This document shows, piece by piece, positions 2,571 to 25,384 of a DNA stretch of 25,384 nucleotides. The notes below the pieces were generated by a model. The model saw only the letters and a program-made list of their open reading frames with translations, made no database searches and was not told the DNA's origin. A program made the position numbers and the translations under genes. The first letter of the stretch is position 1, and the number at the start of each line of letters is the position of its first letter. Source of the stretch: a virus; IMG/VR virus record IMGVR_UViG_3300048838_000787, positions 1 through 25,384 of that record; one strand, written 5' to 3'.

Positions 2571-3050
2571 TTAATCTTTGTGATCTTTGGTAAAATCTCC
2601 TAAATAATTAGTTCCATCATATGTAAATTCAATTTTATCAATTCCACTACTTACAGTTCCAGTATAATCTGTTCCACCTGTCCATAAAATTATAGGATCG
2701 AAATAGACTGGAAATGCAGTACTACTTGTATCATGCACTAGTATTAATGTTAATCTTGCAGGATAAGAAGGATCAATTAATGTGAAGTTTACTGTATCAA
2801 CAACAGTAACAGTTTGTAAATTACCAAGTTTCCAATTAATACTTGTTTCTACAGTATCACCTGCTACAGCAGTAAATGTGTTTGTGACAACATTATCAAA
2901 CATTGCTGTTTTAGTTACTGTCAAAAAAGGTGTTTCCATTTTAATTTTGGCATTTACTTCATCAGGTGTAAGAATATTTTTCTTTCTTTGACCAAATGAA
3001 GTACCTACTACCAATAAGGATAGTACAATAAGTAAGAGTTTTGCTTTCAT
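2571..3050 (-). CDS. Small secreted tail-associated protein (159 aa)
   Basis: The protein starts with a signal peptide (MKAK, Leu/Val-rich core, SFGQ at residues 18-21), then a short basic linker (RKKN) and a beta-rich domain of about 130 residues. The C-terminal pattern of a Gly/Thr-rich strand followed by EFTYDGTNYLG resembles the small beta-sandwich domains that follow fibre genes in Bacteroidota phages and prophages. The similarity is recalled, not searched. The gene lies between two other genes encoding signal peptides, 6 nt before the long fibre gene and 19 nt after the 145-aa gene, so all are probably cotranscribed. There is no Shine-Dalgarno sequence; the upstream DNA is AT-rich. An accessory or tip protein of the fibre is plausible but not proven. 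Confidence 0.75.
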   Translation of the reverse strand: MKAKLLLIVLSLLVVGTSFGQRKKNILTPDEVNAKIKMETPFLTVTKTAMFDNVVTNTFTAVAGDTVETSINWKLGNLQTVTVVDTVNFTLIDPSYPARLTLILVHDTSSTAFPVYFDPIILWTGGTDYTGTVSSGIDKIEFTYDGTNYLGDFTKDHKD

Positions 3051-3069
3051 GATTTTTTAATTTTAATTG

Positions 3070-3507
3070 TTATTCTTTGTATTTTCTTGTTAATCTAAAC
3101 ATTAAATCGAAATATCCACTATTGGTATCTGCACTAACAGATTCAACTTCTATTATTAGAAATGGATAAGTAAAAAATTCTTTCTCCATTGTTAGTGATG
3201 TACTTCCTTCAAATAATAGTGTATCTCCATAAGCTACATAAGAATTAGTACTATCTGCATCATCAGCTACTTTAAATCTTACATATAATGAGTCTTCAAT
3301 AGATGCTGATGTTCCAATCACATTAAAACCAGCAGCATTTAATGGCATTTCTAAAATAATAGTAGTATCAGAAAATAAAAATCCACCTGTAATTGTATCT
3401 AATGCAAGATCATTTAATACATAAAATGGTCTGTGTTTTACACCTATTTGTGAAAATCCTGTTACACAAATGATTGTAAATAATACTATAAAAAATAACT
3501 TTTTCAT
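3070..3507 (-). CDS. Small secreted tail-associated protein (145 aa)
   Basis: The protein opens with a typical signal peptide (MKKL, Phe/Ile-rich core, GFSQ at residues 17-20). The mature part of about 125 residues alternates short beta strands with polar turns (repeated DTI/DST motifs) and ends in a charged tail (RKYKE). I recognise no named domain. Its size, secretion signal and composition resemble the 159-aa neighbour, so the two may be related accessory proteins, although they do not align convincingly by eye. The start 9 nt after the stop of the YadA-like gene fits a polycistronic message. The role is inferred only from its place in the fibre block. Confidence 0.72.
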   Translation of the reverse strand: MKKLFFIVLFTIICVTGFSQIGVKHRPFYVLNDLALDTITGGFLFSDTTIILEMPLNAAGFNVIGTSASIEDSLYVRFKVADDADSTNSYVAYGDTLLFEGSTSLTMEKEFFTYPFLIIEVESVSADTNSGYFDLMFRLTRKYKE

Positions 3508-3516
3508 ATTTTTAAA

Positions 3517-5709
3517 TTATGGTGTTGATATTGTATATACTATTGAAGGATTAAAATACATTACATCTGCTGATATTGCAATACCTACTGGTTGTATTAA
3601 ATCTCCACCTGACGGTATTGTTTGTGTAAATTCTCCTGTTGTAGCACTTAAATAAACAATTCCTGAACTACCACCTACTGTTAATGTCCATGCATCATTT
3701 CTTACATATCCTCTTTCTATGAATTGTCCAGATGTAGTATTAGCATCTTCTATTGCCATCCACAAACAAGGTGCTGTAGATGTAGCACTTGCATCTGCTT
3801 GCCAAAGTTTTCCATCAGATTTCATATAACAGAGATCAAATTGTTTTACATCTTCTCCTGTTGTATGAGTAGAAATGATACCATTAAATTGTTGATCAGC
3901 ATTAGGTGAACTATCAAATTCTAATGTATTATTAATTACTATACTTTTTTCAGAAAAGTCACCATCTATTAGTTTAGATGTTGATGAATTTCCTATAATG
4001 AGTTTGTTATCACCTGTTTCTGTTAATCCAGATTGATAGCCTATAAATACATTACCTGATTTTTTATGTTTTGTACTATTACCACTTCCTGATTGATAAC
4101 CAATATAAACAGAAGTTGTTGAGTTAGTATCGTAAGCTGCTGCTTCATAACCTATTGCTACTGAATTAGCACCAAAGTCATTTTCATATCCTGCTTTATA
4201 ACCAATAAATACATTGTTATTTCCAGTAGCATGATTGTATAATACACTACTACCAATTGCTGTATTATAAGAGGCTGTATGAGTTGCATTTTTTATAGCA
4301 TTACTACCTATTACAGTATTACCACCACCAGTAGTATTTGCATATAAAGAATAATATCCAATTGTTGTATTTTCATCACCAGTAGTATTTCCATATAATG
4401 ATCTTTCTCCAATTCCAGTATTATAATCTCCTGACATTGTTAGATTTCCAGCATTATAACCAAGAAATGAATTACCAGTTCCTATTGAATGAGCAAAATT
4501 AGCACCACCTAATTTAATAATACCAGTTGTTGATGTTGTAGCTGGAAGATATAAATTTCCTGAAAGCCCAACACTACCATCTACATCTAATTCATGTGCA
4601 GGAGAATTTGTACCAACTCCAAGATAATCACTTAATGTAGTAGCATATAAAGCACCTATGTCATTATCTCTTGTCCAATATCCAGTAACAGAATCAGTAA
4701 CTTTATTTGCATCAATATAGTAAAGATTTTCAGCACCATTTTTATCAATACCTACAAGATAATAATCAGAAGATGTTAATCCTGAATCATCTTGTAATCC
4801 TGAAAATATTACTGTAGTATCAGCTTCAAGAAAATGATTGCTTTTATTTGTAATTGTAGTTCCTACCAATGACCATAATGTTGTATCAGCATTTAAAATA
4901 ATAACTGTATCTGTTACTATATTATTTCCGTATGTATAAATAAACAAACTATCAGAATTTGTAGAAATTCCAGTTGTATTTTTATAGTAATTAAAGATTG
5001 CTGTATCTGCTTTTATATCATTTAATACTTCTAACTGTTCAGTTGGTGTTCTTGTACCTATACCTGTGAGTGTAGATGTATCTGTAATAAACATAAAATT
5101 ATTTGCTGTGTCAACTGTCCATCCAAACAATGTATCCATTTCAGCATGAGTAAGATAATATAATCCTGAATCTGCAGAATTATATACAATCATTCTTATC
5201 GTACTCATATCATCTATTTCTTTAACCACAATATTTGCAAAAATTGTAGTATCAAATACAGAAAATCCTGTTACATTGAAATTACCATTAACTTTAGCAT
5301 CTGTAATATCAGGTCTTGTATAAATTAATCCACCAGTTTTATACCATAAAGTATCAACTCCACCTGTACCAGCTACAAAGTTTACAGTTCCATCAGTATT
5401 TACAACAATATATTTATTAGTATCTGGTAGTTCAATATTTCCTGCAACAATCATTGTACTATCTGGCTGACCTATTAATGCTGATATTGCATATTTATTT
5501 GATATTTCATATAATGCTGTAGCTGCTGAACATCCTGTTGGTAATACATAAAGTGTGTTTGTTTCAGCACTTAATACTAATGATGCAGGAACAACTGTTG
5601 ATGTTGAAATATCTGTTGAATCATCAGCAACTCTAAATATATTTGTCCTTATTTGAGAAAATACTGATACAGAGATCAGTAGGAACAATATTGTAAATAA
5701 TTTTTTCAT
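3517..5709 (-). CDS. Secreted fibre with YadA-head-like left-handed beta-roll (730 aa)
   Basis: Residues 1-19 form a signal peptide (MKKL...VFSQ). Residues 217-240 (GIGTRTPTEQLEV) and 363-388 (LGVGTNSPAHELDV) match the IGT-x-P-x-LDV segments that introduce fibre blocks. Residues about 412-575 are a run of repeats of roughly 14-20 residues with the pattern N-T-x-I-G / S-L-x-x-N-T-T-G, the signature of the YadA-like head beta-roll, which trimerises in adhesins. Residues 600-730 form a compact C-terminal domain containing YMKSDGKLWQAD and a Gly/Thr-rich end, similar to C-terminal knobs of other phage fibres. No autotransporter barrel or type IX secretion tail is present. Receptor binding is the likely role. 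A Sec signal on such a fibre is unexpected for a protein assembled into virions in the cytoplasm. Confidence 0.85.
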   Translation of the reverse strand: MKKLFTILFLLISVSVFSQIRTNIFRVADDSTDISTSTVVPASLVLSAETNTLYVLPTGCSAATALYEISNKYAISALIGQPDSTMIVAGNIELPDTNKYIVVNTDGTVNFVAGTGGVDTLWYKTGGLIYTRPDITDAKVNGNFNVTGFSVFDTTIFANIVVKEIDDMSTIRMIVYNSADSGLYYLTHAEMDTLFGWTVDTANNFMFITDTSTLTGIGTRTPTEQLEVLNDIKADTAIFNYYKNTTGISTNSDSLFIYTYGNNIVTDTVIILNADTTLWSLVGTTITNKSNHFLEADTTVIFSGLQDDSGLTSSDYYLVGIDKNGAENLYYIDANKVTDSVTGYWTRDNDIGALYATTLSDYLGVGTNSPAHELDVDGSVGLSGNLYLPATTSTTGIIKLGGANFAHSIGTGNSFLGYNAGNLTMSGDYNTGIGERSLYGNTTGDENTTIGYYSLYANTTGGGNTVIGSNAIKNATHTASYNTAIGSSVLYNHATGNNNVFIGYKAGYENDFGANSVAIGYEAAAYDTNSTTSVYIGYQSGSGNSTKHKKSGNVFIGYQSGLTETGDNKLIIGNSSTSKLIDGDFSEKSIVINNTLEFDSSPNADQQFNGIISTHTTGEDVKQFDLCYMKSDGKLWQADASATSTAPCLWMAIEDANTTSGQFIERGYVRNDAWTLTVGGSSGIVYLSATTGEFTQTIPSGGDLIQPVGIAISADVMYFNPSIVYTISTP

Positions 5710-5710
5710 T

Positions 5711-6028
5711 TTATCTTACAATTACAATGTTTGAATTCTCTTGTGGTATGTTTTCCAAAGTTACAACATTATTTAATATTGTATATTCGGATGAAGAAAT
5801 TAATATTCCATTAATAAATATTGATGATTCTGGCCTGAGTACAATAGATTCTTCTGGAACTATTATAACTGCTTGATCCCCAGGATTTAATGATGGTGGA
5901 GTAACATAAATTGTTTCATACTTATTTATTTTTTCAGGTGCTTTTTTAACAGATGATACTCCTTCATTGTCAACACTTTGTATGGTTTTATATGCACCAA
6001 ATGGGTATGTTTGTTTTAAATCATTCAT
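5711..6028 (-). CDS. Small structural protein sharing a C-terminal module with its neighbour (105 aa)
   Basis: The start codon overlaps the stop of the 349-aa gene in the sequence TAATG, which suggests translational coupling. Residues 1-60 are polar and partly Pro-rich. Residues 69-105 read IFINGILISSSEYTI...VTLENI...IVIV, closely parallel to residues 312-349 of the upstream protein (IIFINGVAIPSSDYIV...VTLSYG...ITII). This FINGxxI-S-DY-V-L pattern is a beta module often seen at the ends of phage baseplate and fibre proteins. A linker or attachment domain between tail and fibre is a fair guess. There is no signal peptide, unlike the four genes downstream. Confidence 0.75.
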   Translation of the reverse strand: MNDLKQTYPFGAYKTIQSVDNEGVSSVKKAPEKINKYETIYVTPPSLNPGDQAVIIVPEESIVLRPESSIFINGILISSSEYTILNNVVTLENIPQENSNIVIVR

Positions 6029-7077
6029 TACTTTATGATTGTTATTCTGTCACCAACACTAAGACCATAAGATAATGTTACTGTTGTACCAGATACAATA
6101 TAATCAGAACTTGGTATTGCAACACCATTGATGAAAATAATAGAATTACTATCAATCTCAAAAGCTAATGCATTAAATGTTTGCTTACCTTCAAGTTCAA
6201 CAAATTCTTCAAACTTTGACGTTGCATCTTGATAGAAATAAGATAATCCATTCTCACATGTATATATTTGACTTGTAAATATTGATTCAAATTTTGCAAT
6301 CCACATGTTTACATTTATACCTAATATGGCATAACAATTTTCAAGTTCTGAAAATGCAAATAATTCATCAAGTGCATCTTGTTCTCCATCATTATAATCA
6401 GAACTTCCTGCTGTTGCAGGTGCTTCTACATAATCAAAATCAATTTCTGATTTTTCTGTGAAATATGCCATTATATAGAAATATGACATTGTTTCACGAA
6501 GAAGTTGTTCAGTATCAGGTGAATAACCATATGTATCCACATAGTCCATATAATATTCAAGCTTCTGAACATATCTGTCTATACCTTCACCTATCAGCAA
6601 TCTAAATGCATGTTCTGTATATTTTACAAAACATGGTGATTGCAAAATGTCTTTATAAGCAACCAGAGAATTAATTGCCAGATAAATATCATTTCTTATT
6701 TGTTGTGATTTATTGTATTGTCCATTTGTACACAAATCTTGTGATGTTTGTGAACATTGACAAATTAAATTTCTTATGGTTGGTATTAATCTTGCTCTAA
6801 GTGTTGGATAATATCTTACATAATAATTATAATATGTTCCGGGTTGAAAACTTGTTGATTCACTACTATATCTTATTGATATAATATAAGAACCTTCTTC
6901 TGGAAATTCTAACAATTCAGGATCACCTTCTTGTAAGTATTCATTTTGAAGTACAAGTGTTTTATAATTGTTTTCAATCTGATACACATAATAGGTTACT
7001 GTACCACTTCCAATACACTCAATATAATAACCATCTAGTGTTCTATAAAATTTATATCCTGGCGTATTTATCCTCAT
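6028..7077 (-). CDS. Virion structural protein, Cys-containing, tail or tail-attachment region (349 aa)
   Basis: Residues 1-90 are rich in Tyr and beta strands. The central part, from about residue 95, is helical and starts with RARLIPTIRNLICQCSQTSQ and a further Cys, resembling the ICxC...C segment seen in structural proteins of Bacteroidota phages. Residues 312-349 form the FINGVAIPSSDY module shared with the next gene. The ATG at 7077 is downstream of the terminator at 7092-7118, so this gene probably depends on read-through or an unseen promoter. No enzyme motif is visible. The order (connector, abundant structural protein, this protein, fibres) suggests tail or baseplate attachment. Confidence 0.75.
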   Translation of the reverse strand: MRINTPGYKFYRTLDGYYIECIGSGTVTYYVYQIENNYKTLVLQNEYLQEGDPELLEFPEEGSYIISIRYSSESTSFQPGTYYNYYVRYYPTLRARLIPTIRNLICQCSQTSQDLCTNGQYNKSQQIRNDIYLAINSLVAYKDILQSPCFVKYTEHAFRLLIGEGIDRYVQKLEYYMDYVDTYGYSPDTEQLLRETMSYFYIMAYFTEKSEIDFDYVEAPATAGSSDYNDGEQDALDELFAFSELENCYAILGINVNMWIAKFESIFTSQIYTCENGLSYFYQDATSKFEEFVELEGKQTFNALAFEIDSNSIIFINGVAIPSSDYIVSGTTVTLSYGLSVGDRITIIK

Positions 7078-22168: not shown

Positions 22169-22807
22169 ATGACAACAGAAAGTAATGTCGTGAAGACACA
22201 AAAACGCAGCAAAGTAAAGTGTACACTGGTAAGCAAAGGCAATTACCAAAAAGACCATACACTTACCGCAGAACTCAGGCAAAAAGTGATCACAACCAGC
22301 AAATACCCCGGCATGCAGATCAGCAATGATATGCAACAGAATGTGTTTAGCATGGATGATTTTGATGTAAAACCGCAGGAGTTTACATCAGAAGAAACCA
22401 GAGTTGCGTGGATTGATGTGCCTGAAAACACCACAGTAAAAGATGTACAGGACAAAATCCCCGAAAAAGCTACCCTTTACAGGGTATTGAGCAACAGTCC
22501 TATCCTTACCAATTCACAGAAGAACGCAATTTCCCGCAAACTGATCACACTGGATACCATCGCCAATGCACAGGTACTCAGGTATCCTGCAGGCCATGAA
22601 TCAGAAGGTGAAATCATCCTTGATCCTGAAGGTCGTGTGCAGTACAGGAAAATCTTTTTCTGGAAAGAACACAGAGAAGATCAGGACTTACGTGGCACAA
22701 CCCCCGAATACAGAAGCAAGGAAATCATTGCCGAATTAGGCAGTGAGCCTGTCAGTGTTGAAGCTGAACTTGAACTTGCTGAAAGCTGGGAAGTCCAGGA
22801 AGACTAA
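22169..22807 (+). CDS. Soluble protein with acidic C-terminal tail (212 aa), unknown
   Basis: The N-terminus is basic (residues 10-20, KTQKRSKVKC), the middle mixes strands and helices (TRVAWIDVPENTTVKDV; NSQKNAISRKLITL), and the end is strongly acidic (VEAELELAESWEVQED). A basic head with an acidic tail is the layout of single-stranded DNA-binding and some replication proteins, but no OB-fold motif can be proven by eye. The gene appears richer in G and C than its neighbours, which may reflect high expression. It has its own terminator and the long leader region upstream. Confidence 0.78.
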   Translation: MTTESNVVKTQKRSKVKCTLVSKGNYQKDHTLTAELRQKVITTSKYPGMQISNDMQQNVFSMDDFDVKPQEFTSEETRVAWIDVPENTTVKDVQDKIPEKATLYRVLSNSPILTNSQKNAISRKLITLDTIANAQVLRYPAGHESEGEIILDPEGRVQYRKIFFWKEHREDQDLRGTTPEYRSKEIIAELGSEPVSVEAELELAESWEVQED

Positions 22808-22897: not shown

Positions 22898-23089
22898 ATG
22901 GATACAATCAAAGTAGTTCGTTGGCCTGAAAGTCAAATATGTATGGATTGTGTGTATGGAGAATTTGTTGAGTCTGAAAAAACATTTACGTCTTCAGATT
23001 ACATTTGCCATCATCCTTCAAAAATTAGACAAGATCAAGACTGTCCTCACAACAAAACCATTAAAGAAAAAACACATGCACATAGTTAA
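22898..23089 (+). CDS. Small Cys/His-rich protein (63 aa)
   Basis: The frame is open from 22841, but that part lies in the terminator stem and T-run, so the ATG at 22898 is preferred. The product has CMDC at residues 14-17, then CHH and CPH further on, suggesting a single zinc site. It has a basic, His-rich end. The stop codon TAA is the first part of the repeated 31-nt leader at 23086-23116. Function is unknown. Confidence 0.65.
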   Translation: MDTIKVVRWPESQICMDCVYGEFVESEKTFTSSDYICHHPSKIRQDQDCPHNKTIKEKTHAHS

Positions 23090-23116
23090 TTTTCATATTT
23101 TTGCAACATAAAACAA
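23086..23116 (+). repeat. 31-nt leader repeat, copy 1
   Basis: It begins TTAATTTTCATATTTTTGC and ends ACATAAAACAA, and overlaps the stop codon of the 63-aa gene. It contains TATTTTTG at 23096-23103, which fits the -7 promoter box, but no TTTG is found at -33. It is followed after 8 nt by an ATG. Confidence 0.75.
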
Positions 23117-23124
23117 AACTCACA

Positions 23125-23553
23125 ATGGATAACTGGATACCATTAGAAATGTTAAATTTAAAAGACCCACTCATTATTAGATTGGTCAAACAAATTCATG
23201 TTGATACAAGAGACTTTCATTGTTATGTAAATGCTGATAAAGAATTACCACCTGAGACAGAAAAAAACAATGATTTTGGTAAAATGTCAAAATATGGTAA
23301 CAGGTTTTTCTTTACATCAGATGAAGTAATAGAAATACTCAACAGATTGTACACTGAATCTGGTGGTGAATATAAATGGAGAATGTTAACACTGAAAGAT
23401 GATGGTGCTAAATATTCAAAGGGATGGCAACTAAAATACATTCGCATTTACAAGATTAAAGACAAATGGATAATGTGCAATGCTTACAACTATGCACTAA
23501 AAAGAGAAGTCTTTGAATGTGAAGTTGACAAAGAATATACAAACGAACATTAA
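23125..23553 (+). CDS. Hypothetical protein (142 aa)
   Basis: The ATG at 23125 is preferred over an upstream TTG at 23101, which lies inside the promoter-like repeat. The protein is soluble with charged and aromatic patches (SGGEYKWRMLTLKDDG; KYIRIYKIKDKWIMCNAY) and no recognised motif. Its stop codon overlaps the second 31-nt leader repeat, as for the 63-aa gene. The pair of repeats suggests these small genes behave as movable cassettes. Confidence 0.72.
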   Translation: MDNWIPLEMLNLKDPLIIRLVKQIHVDTRDFHCYVNADKELPPETEKNNDFGKMSKYGNRFFFTSDEVIEILNRLYTESGGEYKWRMLTLKDDGAKYSKGWQLKYIRIYKIKDKWIMCNAYNYALKREVFECEVDKEYTNEH

Positions 23554-23580
23554 TTTTTATATTTTTGCAACATAAAACAA
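23550..23580 (+). repeat. 31-nt leader repeat, copy 2
   Basis: It matches copy 1 in 30 of 31 positions (T for C at the ninth base), again overlapping the previous stop codon, with TATTTTTG at 23560-23567. The next ATG follows after 7 nt. Confidence 0.75.
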
Positions 23581-23587
23581 TAAAAAC

Positions 23588-23725
23588 ATGACAACAGACA
23601 AAGAACAAATCAACAAAAAGGTTGAGAAAATCAGAAAGAAATCCATTATTAAAGAATGGAAAAAAGAAATCGGTATTCCAAAAAGACAGTACAAATATGA
23701 AACTGTCATAACTTTTACAAGTTAG
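23588..23725 (+). CDS. Small Lys-rich helical protein (45 aa)
   Basis: The product MTTDKEQINKKVEKIRKKSI... is a charged helix with many Lys and Glu, then KRQYKYET and a short hydrophobic end. The start directly follows leader repeat 2. It ends in TAG, 2 nt before the next ATG. It might bind nucleic acid or a partner protein; nothing more can be said. Confidence 0.6.
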   Translation: MTTDKEQINKKVEKIRKKSIIKEWKKEIGIPKRQYKYETVITFTS

Positions 23726-23727
23726 CC

Positions 23728-23871
23728 ATGGACAATAACATCATTGACAACGAAGATGAAGGTACAATTTACAATACTACTGTACCTGATCCCACCTTAT
23801 CCATTCCTCAACTACCAGAATTACCTGATGAGGACATTGGAACAACAAGAGAAAAAGAACTACTTTATTAA
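23728..23871 (+). CDS. Small acidic protein (47 aa)
   Basis: An acidic, Pro-containing protein (MDNNIIDNEDEG; LSIPQLPELPDEDIG) with no signal or membrane segment. It follows the 45-aa gene with a 2-nt gap and is probably translated from the same message. Acidic peptides of this size in phages sometimes mimic DNA or inhibit host enzymes; this is only a possibility. It is the last gene before the structured RNA region. Confidence 0.6.
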   Translation: MDNNIIDNEDEGTIYNTTVPDPTLSIPQLPELPDEDIGTTREKELLY

Positions 23872-23875
23872 AATA

Positions 23876-24421
23876 TAGGCCGAACAAATTATAATGAACC
23901 ATTGGATTGTTGGGCTTAAAGACTGATAACTGAACGTGAGAAGGCAGAAAACAGTTAGTATCTCACTCACATGAGATATGGGATAGATTGTCAAGGCGAA
24001 CAATTTCCCGATGTATAGCCAGCTATGCATTGAAAAAATAATATTTCTATCAAAAAGAAGGTTATCACCGCTTGGAGATAGACTAATCGAAGGTTGTCAT
24101 TATGAAGAGGTAAGACATTAAATTGATACCTGTCTGGCAAATTGCATGTGAACACCTGCACAGTAAAAGAGCACAGTTTTGAAAAATAGATTGTGTTGAG
24201 TAAGCCAGTATAAACAAAGCCTTTGATTTTTAAGACATTTACACCAAAAGCTGATAGGCAGTCGAGCATTAGCAGGCACTATGGCTACTTGATATATACT
24301 AGTTTCTATCAAGTAGTAAGAATAGTAAAGGTGAAATTCCTTATTGGTGTAGATAGACGAACACAATTAATCTGCAAGAATGTAGGTTGTATCACAGGTG
24401 AAGCAGTCTGATGGGGAAACT
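23876..24421 (+). ncRNA. Candidate large structured RNA, 5' part
   Basis: No plausible gene lies here; short frames on both strands lack protein-like composition. Many stems are visible: 23927-23932/23952-23957; 23959-23965/23972-23978 (7 bp, perfect); 23985-23991/24000-24006; 24011-24018/24023-24030 (8 bp, CCAG loop); 24046-24051/24077-24082; and a four-way fold at 24237-24354. The base composition appears less AT-rich than the flanking genes. Such dense folding beside phage tRNA genes is the setting of GOLLD and ROOL RNAs. I cannot assign it to either family. The strand is assumed from the tRNAs that follow. Confidence 0.55.
24237..24354 (+). other. Cloverleaf-like four-way fold inside the RNA region
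   Basis: A 9-bp closing stem (24237-24245 with 24346-24354, one G-U) encloses three arms: 24250-24255/24268-24273 (6 bp, one G-U), 24285-24294/24307-24316 (10 bp, perfect), and 24328-24331/24339-24342 (4 bp, 7-nt loop). The arrangement and 7-nt last loop recall a tRNA, but the T-loop consensus is absent. The 10-nt GAGCATTAGC here (24264-24273) recurs in the split tRNA at 24443-24452. Confidence 0.5.
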
Positions 24422-24588
24422 AGGAAAGTAGCTCAGTTGGTAGAGCATTAGCGTGAAAAAAATAGTAATCTGTTATCACAGAATTAGAAAGCTGTAAAGG
24501 TGCTCAGGAGCATTAAAGATAGAAGATAACTAACAGCAATTAAAACAACTGGTTCTAAGGGTCAGTGGTTCGAGTCCACTCTTTCCTG
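24422..24588 (+). tRNA. tRNA with an insert of about 95 nt in the anticodon loop
   Basis: All outer parts are present: acceptor AGGAAAG/CTTTCCT (24422-24428, 24581-24587), D arm GCTC...GAGC (24431-24446), T arm AGTGG-TTCGAGT-CCACT (24564-24580), variable loop GGGTC, and discriminator G at 24588. CCA is not encoded. The anticodon stem is split: TTAG at 24448-24451 pairs with CTAA at 24555-24558. Between them are about 103 nt, including a three-way fold: 24472-24477/24525-24530, 24478-24481/24492-24495, 24500-24504/24509-24513. The anticodon cannot be read with certainty (CUG or GUG are options). The insert is far too short for a usual group I intron. Confidence 0.7.
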
Positions 24589-24969
24589 CAAATTTAAAAT
24601 ACAAAGAAACTATGCAAGCACAACATCTAGCGTTAGCAGAGAAAACTGCGTAAGCAAATTAAATCTGTTGTCTATAAAGTTGCATGGTAATAGCCTGCTG
24701 AAAACAAACAGTGAGGGTTGTATTATCAACTGAAAGATAGGTAAATTGCTTGGACACTCCGAGTTAGAATTAAGGAGCCAATATAAAGGTTTAAACCTTT
24801 GCACGGGTGGTATGCTAAAGAGAACCACAGAACAAAACCTTATCATAGTCCTTTGCCAAAGGACGTTGTTTGTTGGATGATATTAAGACATCAGTTCTGA
24901 TGACTCCGAAATGAGAAAATAAGAGTTTTATCAAGATATTCCAGGTGGCACTGGGCAGGCTTGTTTTAC
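24589..24969 (+). ncRNA. Candidate large structured RNA, 3' part
   Basis: No gene is seen. Nested stems 24612-24617/24680-24685 (ATGCAA/TTGCAT), 24620-24625/24666-24671 (ACAACA/TGTTGT) and 24636-24639/24646-24649 form a long arm. Others are 24717-24720/24727-24730, 24750-24753 and 24757-24760 with 24774-24781, the palindrome 24785-24800 (AAAGGTTTAAACCTTT), 24848-24854/24858-24864 (7 bp, 3-nt loop) and 24889-24894/24897-24902. It may continue the RNA begun before the split tRNA, or be a second RNA. Confidence 0.55.
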
Positions 24970-25043
24970 AGAGTAGTATATCAGTTGGTTAGATTACTTG
25001 GTTTGGAACCAAGAGGTCGTCAGTTCGAGTCTGACCTACTCTA
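24970..25043 (+). tRNA. tRNA-Pro (UGG)
   Basis: A complete cloverleaf: acceptor AGAGTAG/CTACTCT, D arm TATC...GATT (one mismatch), anticodon stem CTTGG/CCAAG with loop TTTGGAA (anticodon TGG at 25004-25006), variable loop AGGTC, T arm GTCAG-TTCGAGT-CTGAC, discriminator A. CCA is not encoded. Phage tRNAs usually support codons common in the phage but rarer in the host. Confidence 0.93.
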
Positions 25044-25068
25044 CATTAATAGTTCAACTTTTAAAGAA

Positions 25069-25365
25069 ATGGAACAATTAACTAAGCAAGAAAAATTAAA
25101 GATTTACAAACTTGCACTTGAAATATACAAAAAAGAGATAGGTATATATCATTGGGTTGGTTTATGCAATGCATGTCACCAAGCAATGCGTAATTTATTC
25201 TATTTTTGTGATATTGAAAATTGTTTAAAAGAGTTAATGGATTATAAACCAATATATATAACTAATAATCATACCTATTGGTGGCCTGTTGATGATCATG
25301 AAATTCGTATTAAAATATTAGAAGAAATTATTAACAAACTTAAACAAGATGTCGAACAGCAATAA
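25069..25365 (+). CDS. Hypothetical protein with Cys residues (98 aa)
   Basis: The ATG at 25069 lies 25 nt after tRNA-Pro; a longer frame from 24961 would read through the tRNA and is rejected. The N-terminus is a Lys-rich helix (MEQLTKQEKLKIYKLALEIY), the middle has CNAC and CDIENC, the next part is aromatic (TYWWPVDDHE), and the end is a charged helix. The Cys spacing might allow metal binding but is not a standard ribbon. Function is unknown. Confidence 0.72.
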   Translation: MEQLTKQEKLKIYKLALEIYKKEIGIYHWVGLCNACHQAMRNLFYFCDIENCLKELMDYKPIYITNNHTYWWPVDDHEIRIKILEEIINKLKQDVEQQ

Positions 25366-25374
25366 AACTAATAT

Positions 25375-25384
25375 ATGAAAAAAG
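25375..25384 (+). CDS. First codons of a gene running off the right edge
   Basis: ATGAAAAAAG begins 9 nt after the stop of the 98-aa gene, in an AT-rich context like other starts here. Only three codons are visible. Confidence 0.35.

Follow-up and report, generated by a model that had tools for sequence, protein, structure and literature searches.

The stretch at 23876-24969 of a viral DNA of 25,384 nts (referred to here as the window) is probably a cluster of separate small RNAs that includes a new phage RNA family, element A. The family, the structure and the separability of element A are established by comparative sequence analysis. The terminase, portal and major capsid proteins of the window match phrog_6681, phrog_6547 and phrog_11589, which we take to be a crAss-like set, so that the window phage is presumably crAss-like, a gut-type phage. 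The window is a fragment of this phage, and its RNA region recurs without a single difference (100% identity) in contig G001 of 92.7 kb. A conserved neighbouring gene, matching phrog_16309, was used as bait to collect related loci (Table 1).

Table 1. Features of the RNA region and homologues of element A. Positions are those of the window unless another contig is named.
Feature	Position	Strand	Basis or remark
phrog_16309 protein gene, unknown function	22169..22807	+	E 7e-46
Predicted hairpins 5′ of element A	23876..24084	+	within the region of z -4.5; without confirmed homologue
Element A, ~145-nt structured RNA	24085..24228	+	homologues and covariation
P1 of element A	24085-24093/24220-24228
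P2 of element A	24108-24112/24127-24131
P5 of element A	24134-24138/24204-24208
P3 of element A	24143-24148/24155-24160
P4 of element A	24172-24179/24188-24195
Closed multi-helix domain, cloverleaf-like	24237..24354	+	single-sequence fold only
tRNA-like gene (split tRNA), acceptor, D and T arms intact	24422..24588	+	Rfam tRNA 47.2 bits (gathering threshold 29); arm scan
Element D, conserved, immediately upstream of tRNA-Pro	24835..24969	+	homologue in L150
tRNA-Pro, anticodon TGG, normal	24970..25043	+
Element A homologue	L088 5822-5976
Element A homologue	L138 12453-12321	-
Element A homologue	L150 1865-2011

An earlier note, made from the letters of the DNA, had taken the whole stretch as a candidate for one giant, densely structured phage RNA of the GOLLD or ROOL kind, a divergent relative or a new class, with a split tRNA in its middle and a tRNA-Pro at its side. 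Both tRNA genes were recovered where the note had placed them, and the + strand of 23876-24969 is indeed without convincing ORF. The dense structure held for the first half, 23876-24421, which has a folding energy (MFE) z score of -4.5 in sense and -1.3 in antisense, but not throughout: against dinucleotide shuffles the whole 1,094 nts reach a moderate -2.8 on the + strand (-1.3 on the - strand) and the second half, 24590-24969, is weakly structured with -1.5. Coding controls for the whole stretch gave -1.1, -2.5 and -1.8, and one from another phage gave -4.7. Because coding sequence can score this low, the case was not built on folding energy and homologues were sought instead. Search with Rfam 15 (cmscan, at gathering thresholds and at E<=10) reported only the two tRNAs, with no GOLLD and no ROOL, and a BLAST search of annotated phages with this region returned essentially tRNA matches alone. 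A hammerhead-like CUGAUGA..GAAA at 24896, also without Rfam match, was rejected on inspection because its stems misfit.

All-against-all comparison of the gene-free DNA of the related loci gave a single match to the window RNA, L088 5839-5967 (66% identity over 130 nts, E 1e-4; pairwise E 6e-8), with a local score of 96 where the best of 200 shuffles reached 76. A covariance model of this pair, run on contigs found by a relaxed core pattern, retrieved element A from L138, a contig of 320,934 bases (74 bits, E 3e-14), and from L150, one of 50,892 bases (71 bits, E 2e-13); the element is known from at least four different phage genomes. A second covariance model, run on 39 whole contigs, reported these four members and two weak matches, G028 (27.5 bits) and G040 (21.4 bits), which were not counted because both score far below the members and G028 is without the UGGC/GCC helix. 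Exact scans of the viral collection yielded few copies, no believable match was found in annotated phages and no curated Rfam family matched. As judged from its sequence, element A is a new, previously undescribed family of structured phage RNA. The new class of structured RNA near phage tRNAs envisaged by the earlier note is thereby supported, in the form of a four-member, strongly covarying element outside the Rfam families.

The architecture of element A comprises a long closing helix, P1, around three hairpins and a short UGGC/GCC helix, with a U-rich tail after it, and this structure is established by the covariation of the aligned members, not by z scores alone. The P1 strands read AATCGAAGG/CCTTTGATT in the window, GATTTCTAAG/CTTAGAAATT in L088, AAAAGTGAGG/CCTCATTTTT in L138 and ATGATCAAGG/CCTTGATCAT in L150. 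With helix registers set by hand, the four phages display changes on both sides, with pairing kept, in 7 of the 9 pairs of P1, in all 6 pairs of P3 and in 1 of the 5 pairs of P2. P4 is found in all four members with differing sequence, and the core of the UGGC/GCC helix is invariant. These compensatory changes indicate that element A is under selection. The conserved single strands are UCUGGCAAAU, GUAAAAG, AGUGAGCC (AGUAAGCC in the window) and AUAAACAAAGCC; since two members were obtained via a pattern that includes the conserved core, the constancy of the core letters partly reflects how the members were selected, an effect that does not touch the covarying helices. P1, P3, P4 and the GGC/GCC helix all appear in the single-sequence MFE folds of the window, L088 and L138, and the fold of L150 is broadly alike; the single-sequence z scores of the four are -3.8, -3.5, -3.3 and -2.0. 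When an unadjusted MAFFT alignment of the window and L088 was used, its fold was equalled by 7 of 500 column shuffles. Two of the refuting conditions named by the earlier note left the structured RNA unrefuted: covariation among homologues is present in element A, and no coding frame is apparent in the homologous stretches.

The genomic settings of element A differ from phage to phage. In two of them (L138 and L150) it stands alone between protein genes, and in L138 a Bacteroidetes-type promoter sequence, TTTG-N20-TACTTTTG, lies just upstream; a promoter of this type was not found at 23000-25384 of the window. The L138 promoter is one of three in a tandem array (12522-11890, - strand), the other two of which, downstream of element A, precede short repeated GGGACTTTGGATTTCTATCCTTAGTCCC hairpins. 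The element is followed by the split tRNA in the window and by small ORFs in L088 and L150, and in L138 by no same-strand gene of at least 70 codons for at least several hundred bases. A compact fold with invariant unpaired letters is typical of ligand-binding or catalytic RNAs, which would suit a cis-acting, riboswitch- or ribozyme-like element controlling the next gene, but such a role is unlikely with downstream settings so different. Because each of the four phages has other genes beside it, element A is probably not a switch for one gene and is more plausibly active in trans. It would be a free-standing phage small RNA that may bind a protein, a ligand or another RNA, with the four nearly invariant single strands, held by P1, as the putative recognition surface. 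Similar to other structured small RNAs of phages, it is short and intergenic and has, in one phage, a promoter sequence of its own, but its sequence and five-helix architecture fall outside every curated family.

Element D contains a AGUCCUUUGCCAAAGGA hairpin and a CCA-N-NUGGCA-N-UGG hairpin with one compensatory pair, and matches L150 3503-3653 with a local score of 73, the highest of 500 shuffles being 56. Its model (R3) has two members only, the window and L150, and element D alone is not significantly folded (z about 0). The block abuts the tRNA-Pro in the window and a tRNA-Gly in L150, where it lies ~1.5 kb beyond element A with protein genes in between.

The size of the stretch, its lack of genes, the adjoining tRNA and the tRNA in its middle would all fit one giant ornate RNA of a class like GOLLD/ROOL, either new or very divergent, that would form a large RNA assembly and carry the tRNA in a variable region, as happens in some GOLLD RNAs. 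GOLLD and ROOL frequently lie near tRNA islands, and tRNAs are sometimes found within the GOLLD linker (PMC12286853). Like these RNAs, those of the stretch are phage-encoded, structured and placed beside tRNA genes; unlike them, which are single RNAs of >500 nts assembling into homo-oligomers, element A has only ~145 nts and occurs alone, no large conserved unit is apparent, and Rfam, whose GOLLD model covers the conserved 3′ domain, gave no match even at E<=10. The weak structure of the second half also speaks against a giant RNA. Since other phages have elements A and D as short units apart from each other, the parts are separable and a single giant RNA is improbable; the earlier proposals of one continuous RNA and of a GOLLD/ROOL membership were not borne out. 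No homologue was confirmed for three parts, 23876-24084, 24237-24354 and 24590-24834, which in the window phage could still belong to a larger RNA as its arms. The first bears a marginal similarity to L088 (4 of 200 shuffles were equally good), and the second has an 11-bp outer stem and a 7-nt UGAAAUU loop (z -3.5 for 24228-24366).

In the split tRNA, 103 nts separate the anticodon-stem halves where the Rfam model has 9, so that the middle of the molecule counts 117 nts instead of the normal ~23 and the anticodon loop is ~94 nts too long. Neither a 7-nt anticodon loop with U33 nor any other standard anticodon loop was found at 24422-24588, the insert is not significantly folded and the whole gene has a z score of -0.7. 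A search for tRNA arm sets in 553 kb of the phage group found 13, against 0.25 expected from shuffles, and most of the 13 miss the standard anticodon arm. A tetraloop replaces the anticodon loop in the tRNA-likes of L049/L048, L025 has two tRNA-likes with enlarged loops, and G001 has a second, tRNA-Leu-like one. The tRNA-likes without standard anticodon in L049 (5104-5175, 5986-6057 and 6448-6515, their anticodon arm ending in the tetraloop), L025 (10354-10437 and 6857-6996 (-)) and L034 (2884-2984 (-)) lie mostly between protein genes. The intact acceptor, D and T arms and an anticodon stem that re-forms across the insert would be expected of an ordinary tRNA with an intron removed by splicing. 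Such an intron is hardly probable: at ~94 nts the insert falls below the length of known self-splicing introns, the gene lacks significant folding, and splicing explains neither the tetraloop tRNA-likes of L049 nor the different inserts of L025. Because most tRNA-likes of the phage group are without the standard anticodon arm, an unspliced, non-decoding role of the split tRNA appears more likely.

The split tRNA resembles a tmRNA (RF00023) in joining tRNA-like ends to a large middle, and the tmRNAs of relatives adjoin the phrog_16309 gene, but it keeps a normal D arm and is without a tag reading frame. A tmRNA in the window phage was rejected, because RF00023 has no match in G001 or the window and no tag end (GCN-GCN-stop) occurs within 23876-24969. 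Among relatives, RF00023 exceeds the Rfam cut-off in 15 of 40 contigs near the phrog_16309 gene, several of which are near-identical, and FpV4 and FPSV-S29, cultured phages of Flavobacterium, have tmRNAs as well. Examples near phrog_16309 are L046 6815-7202, L055 (FpV4, KT876724) 5948-6362, L056 (MK764449) 5490-5904 and those of L098-L114; the tmRNA is unannotated in both cultured Flavobacterium phage records examined. The phage tmRNA tag is unusually long and conserved (GNT.EN.QVQANM..V..LI...EEVELAVAA). Since relatives have tmRNAs in this same gene neighbourhood and the window phage has none, the locus might be viewed as a decayed tmRNA/tRNA island without current function; this is very improbable, because the compensatory changes of element A require selection.

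Past the window end, the gene that follows the RNAs in G001 encodes a DUF2828/DUF7788 (Ro60-like) protein (E 3e-21), and in G014, of similar layout, a TROVE gene follows the RNAs (E 3e-16). By analogy with bacterial Ro60 (Rsr) and the YrlA Y RNA, where a tRNA-mimicking RNA likewise stands beside a Ro60-like gene, the RNAs and the tRNA mimic may bind the neighbouring protein in a phage Ro60/Y-RNA-like particle, with a role in RNA decay or as anticodon-nuclease decoys. The tRNA-like part of YrlA is not cut by an anticodon nuclease and was proposed to be a competitor of that nuclease (PMC7790460), and some jumbo phages encode TROVE proteins (PMC7824862). However, the phage association is sporadic: most relatives that have RNAs at this place are without TROVE/DUF7788, as are two of the four element A phages (G038 and G047), and in G046 it lies ~207 kb away. 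In L153 and L154 the surroundings of the DUF7788 gene yielded no tRNA-like, no Y RNA family of Rfam matched the stretch, and RtcB is absent from G001, G014 and G038; a search for RNA_lig_T4_1 gave no signal anywhere, controls included, and so carries no weight. Since its genes are missing from most relatives and distant in G046, such a particle is unlikely and was kept as a rival, not as the main explanation.

Other gene-free RNAs were observed in the relatives. Element B is common to five phages (L063 3275-3560; L088 7645-8110; L013 2140-1340 (-); L078 and L080, about 4730-5130), has no Rfam match in L063 and L088, and carries the motifs CTAAACATTGA, CTTGAGAAAG, GAGTTCTCRGCAA and ACCCTACTCTTA..AGAGGGT; it was rejected as part of the window RNA, from which these motifs are missing. 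In L063 it follows a tmRNA of 525 nts (2719-3243), which carries large insertions in its interior, and precedes a TROVE (Ro60) gene (4127-5524), and in L013 it is followed by an HNH gene with NUMOD4. L013 (4890-5240 (-)), L069, L072 and L074 share a gene-free block of ~217 nts that is 88% conserved between otherwise diverged phages. In L006, a close relative, a strongly folded gene-free RNA with a T-arm-like 3′ end (440-118 (-), z -4.2) lies downstream of the phrog_16309 gene; no sequence similarity between it and the window RNA could be detected.

Under the preferred reading of a small-RNA cluster, element A of the window would be co-transcribed with the tRNA-like gene, element D and tRNA-Pro, and could be freed by cuts of the host RNase P and RNase Z at the tRNA ends, a release suggested by known tRNA processing. 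More tentatively, and with the chances rather against it, the locus may belong to a wider phage RNA system, a variable island near one conserved gene in this crAss-like group, composed of anticodon-less tRNA-likes, long-tag tmRNAs and element A, sometimes with a Ro60-like protein. If so, the island RNAs would together counter a host defence that cuts tRNAs, or assume the task of ribosome rescue. Element A is a compact RNA family supported by covariation, missing from Rfam and found in phages whose genomes differ widely in size, and ‘giant’ gene-free stretches next to phage tRNAs can be clusters of small RNAs. Through the anticodon-less tRNA-likes and the unannotated tmRNAs of this neighbourhood, the latter present in cultured Flavobacterium phages too, tRNA mimicry and ribosome rescue by phages become open to bench experiments.
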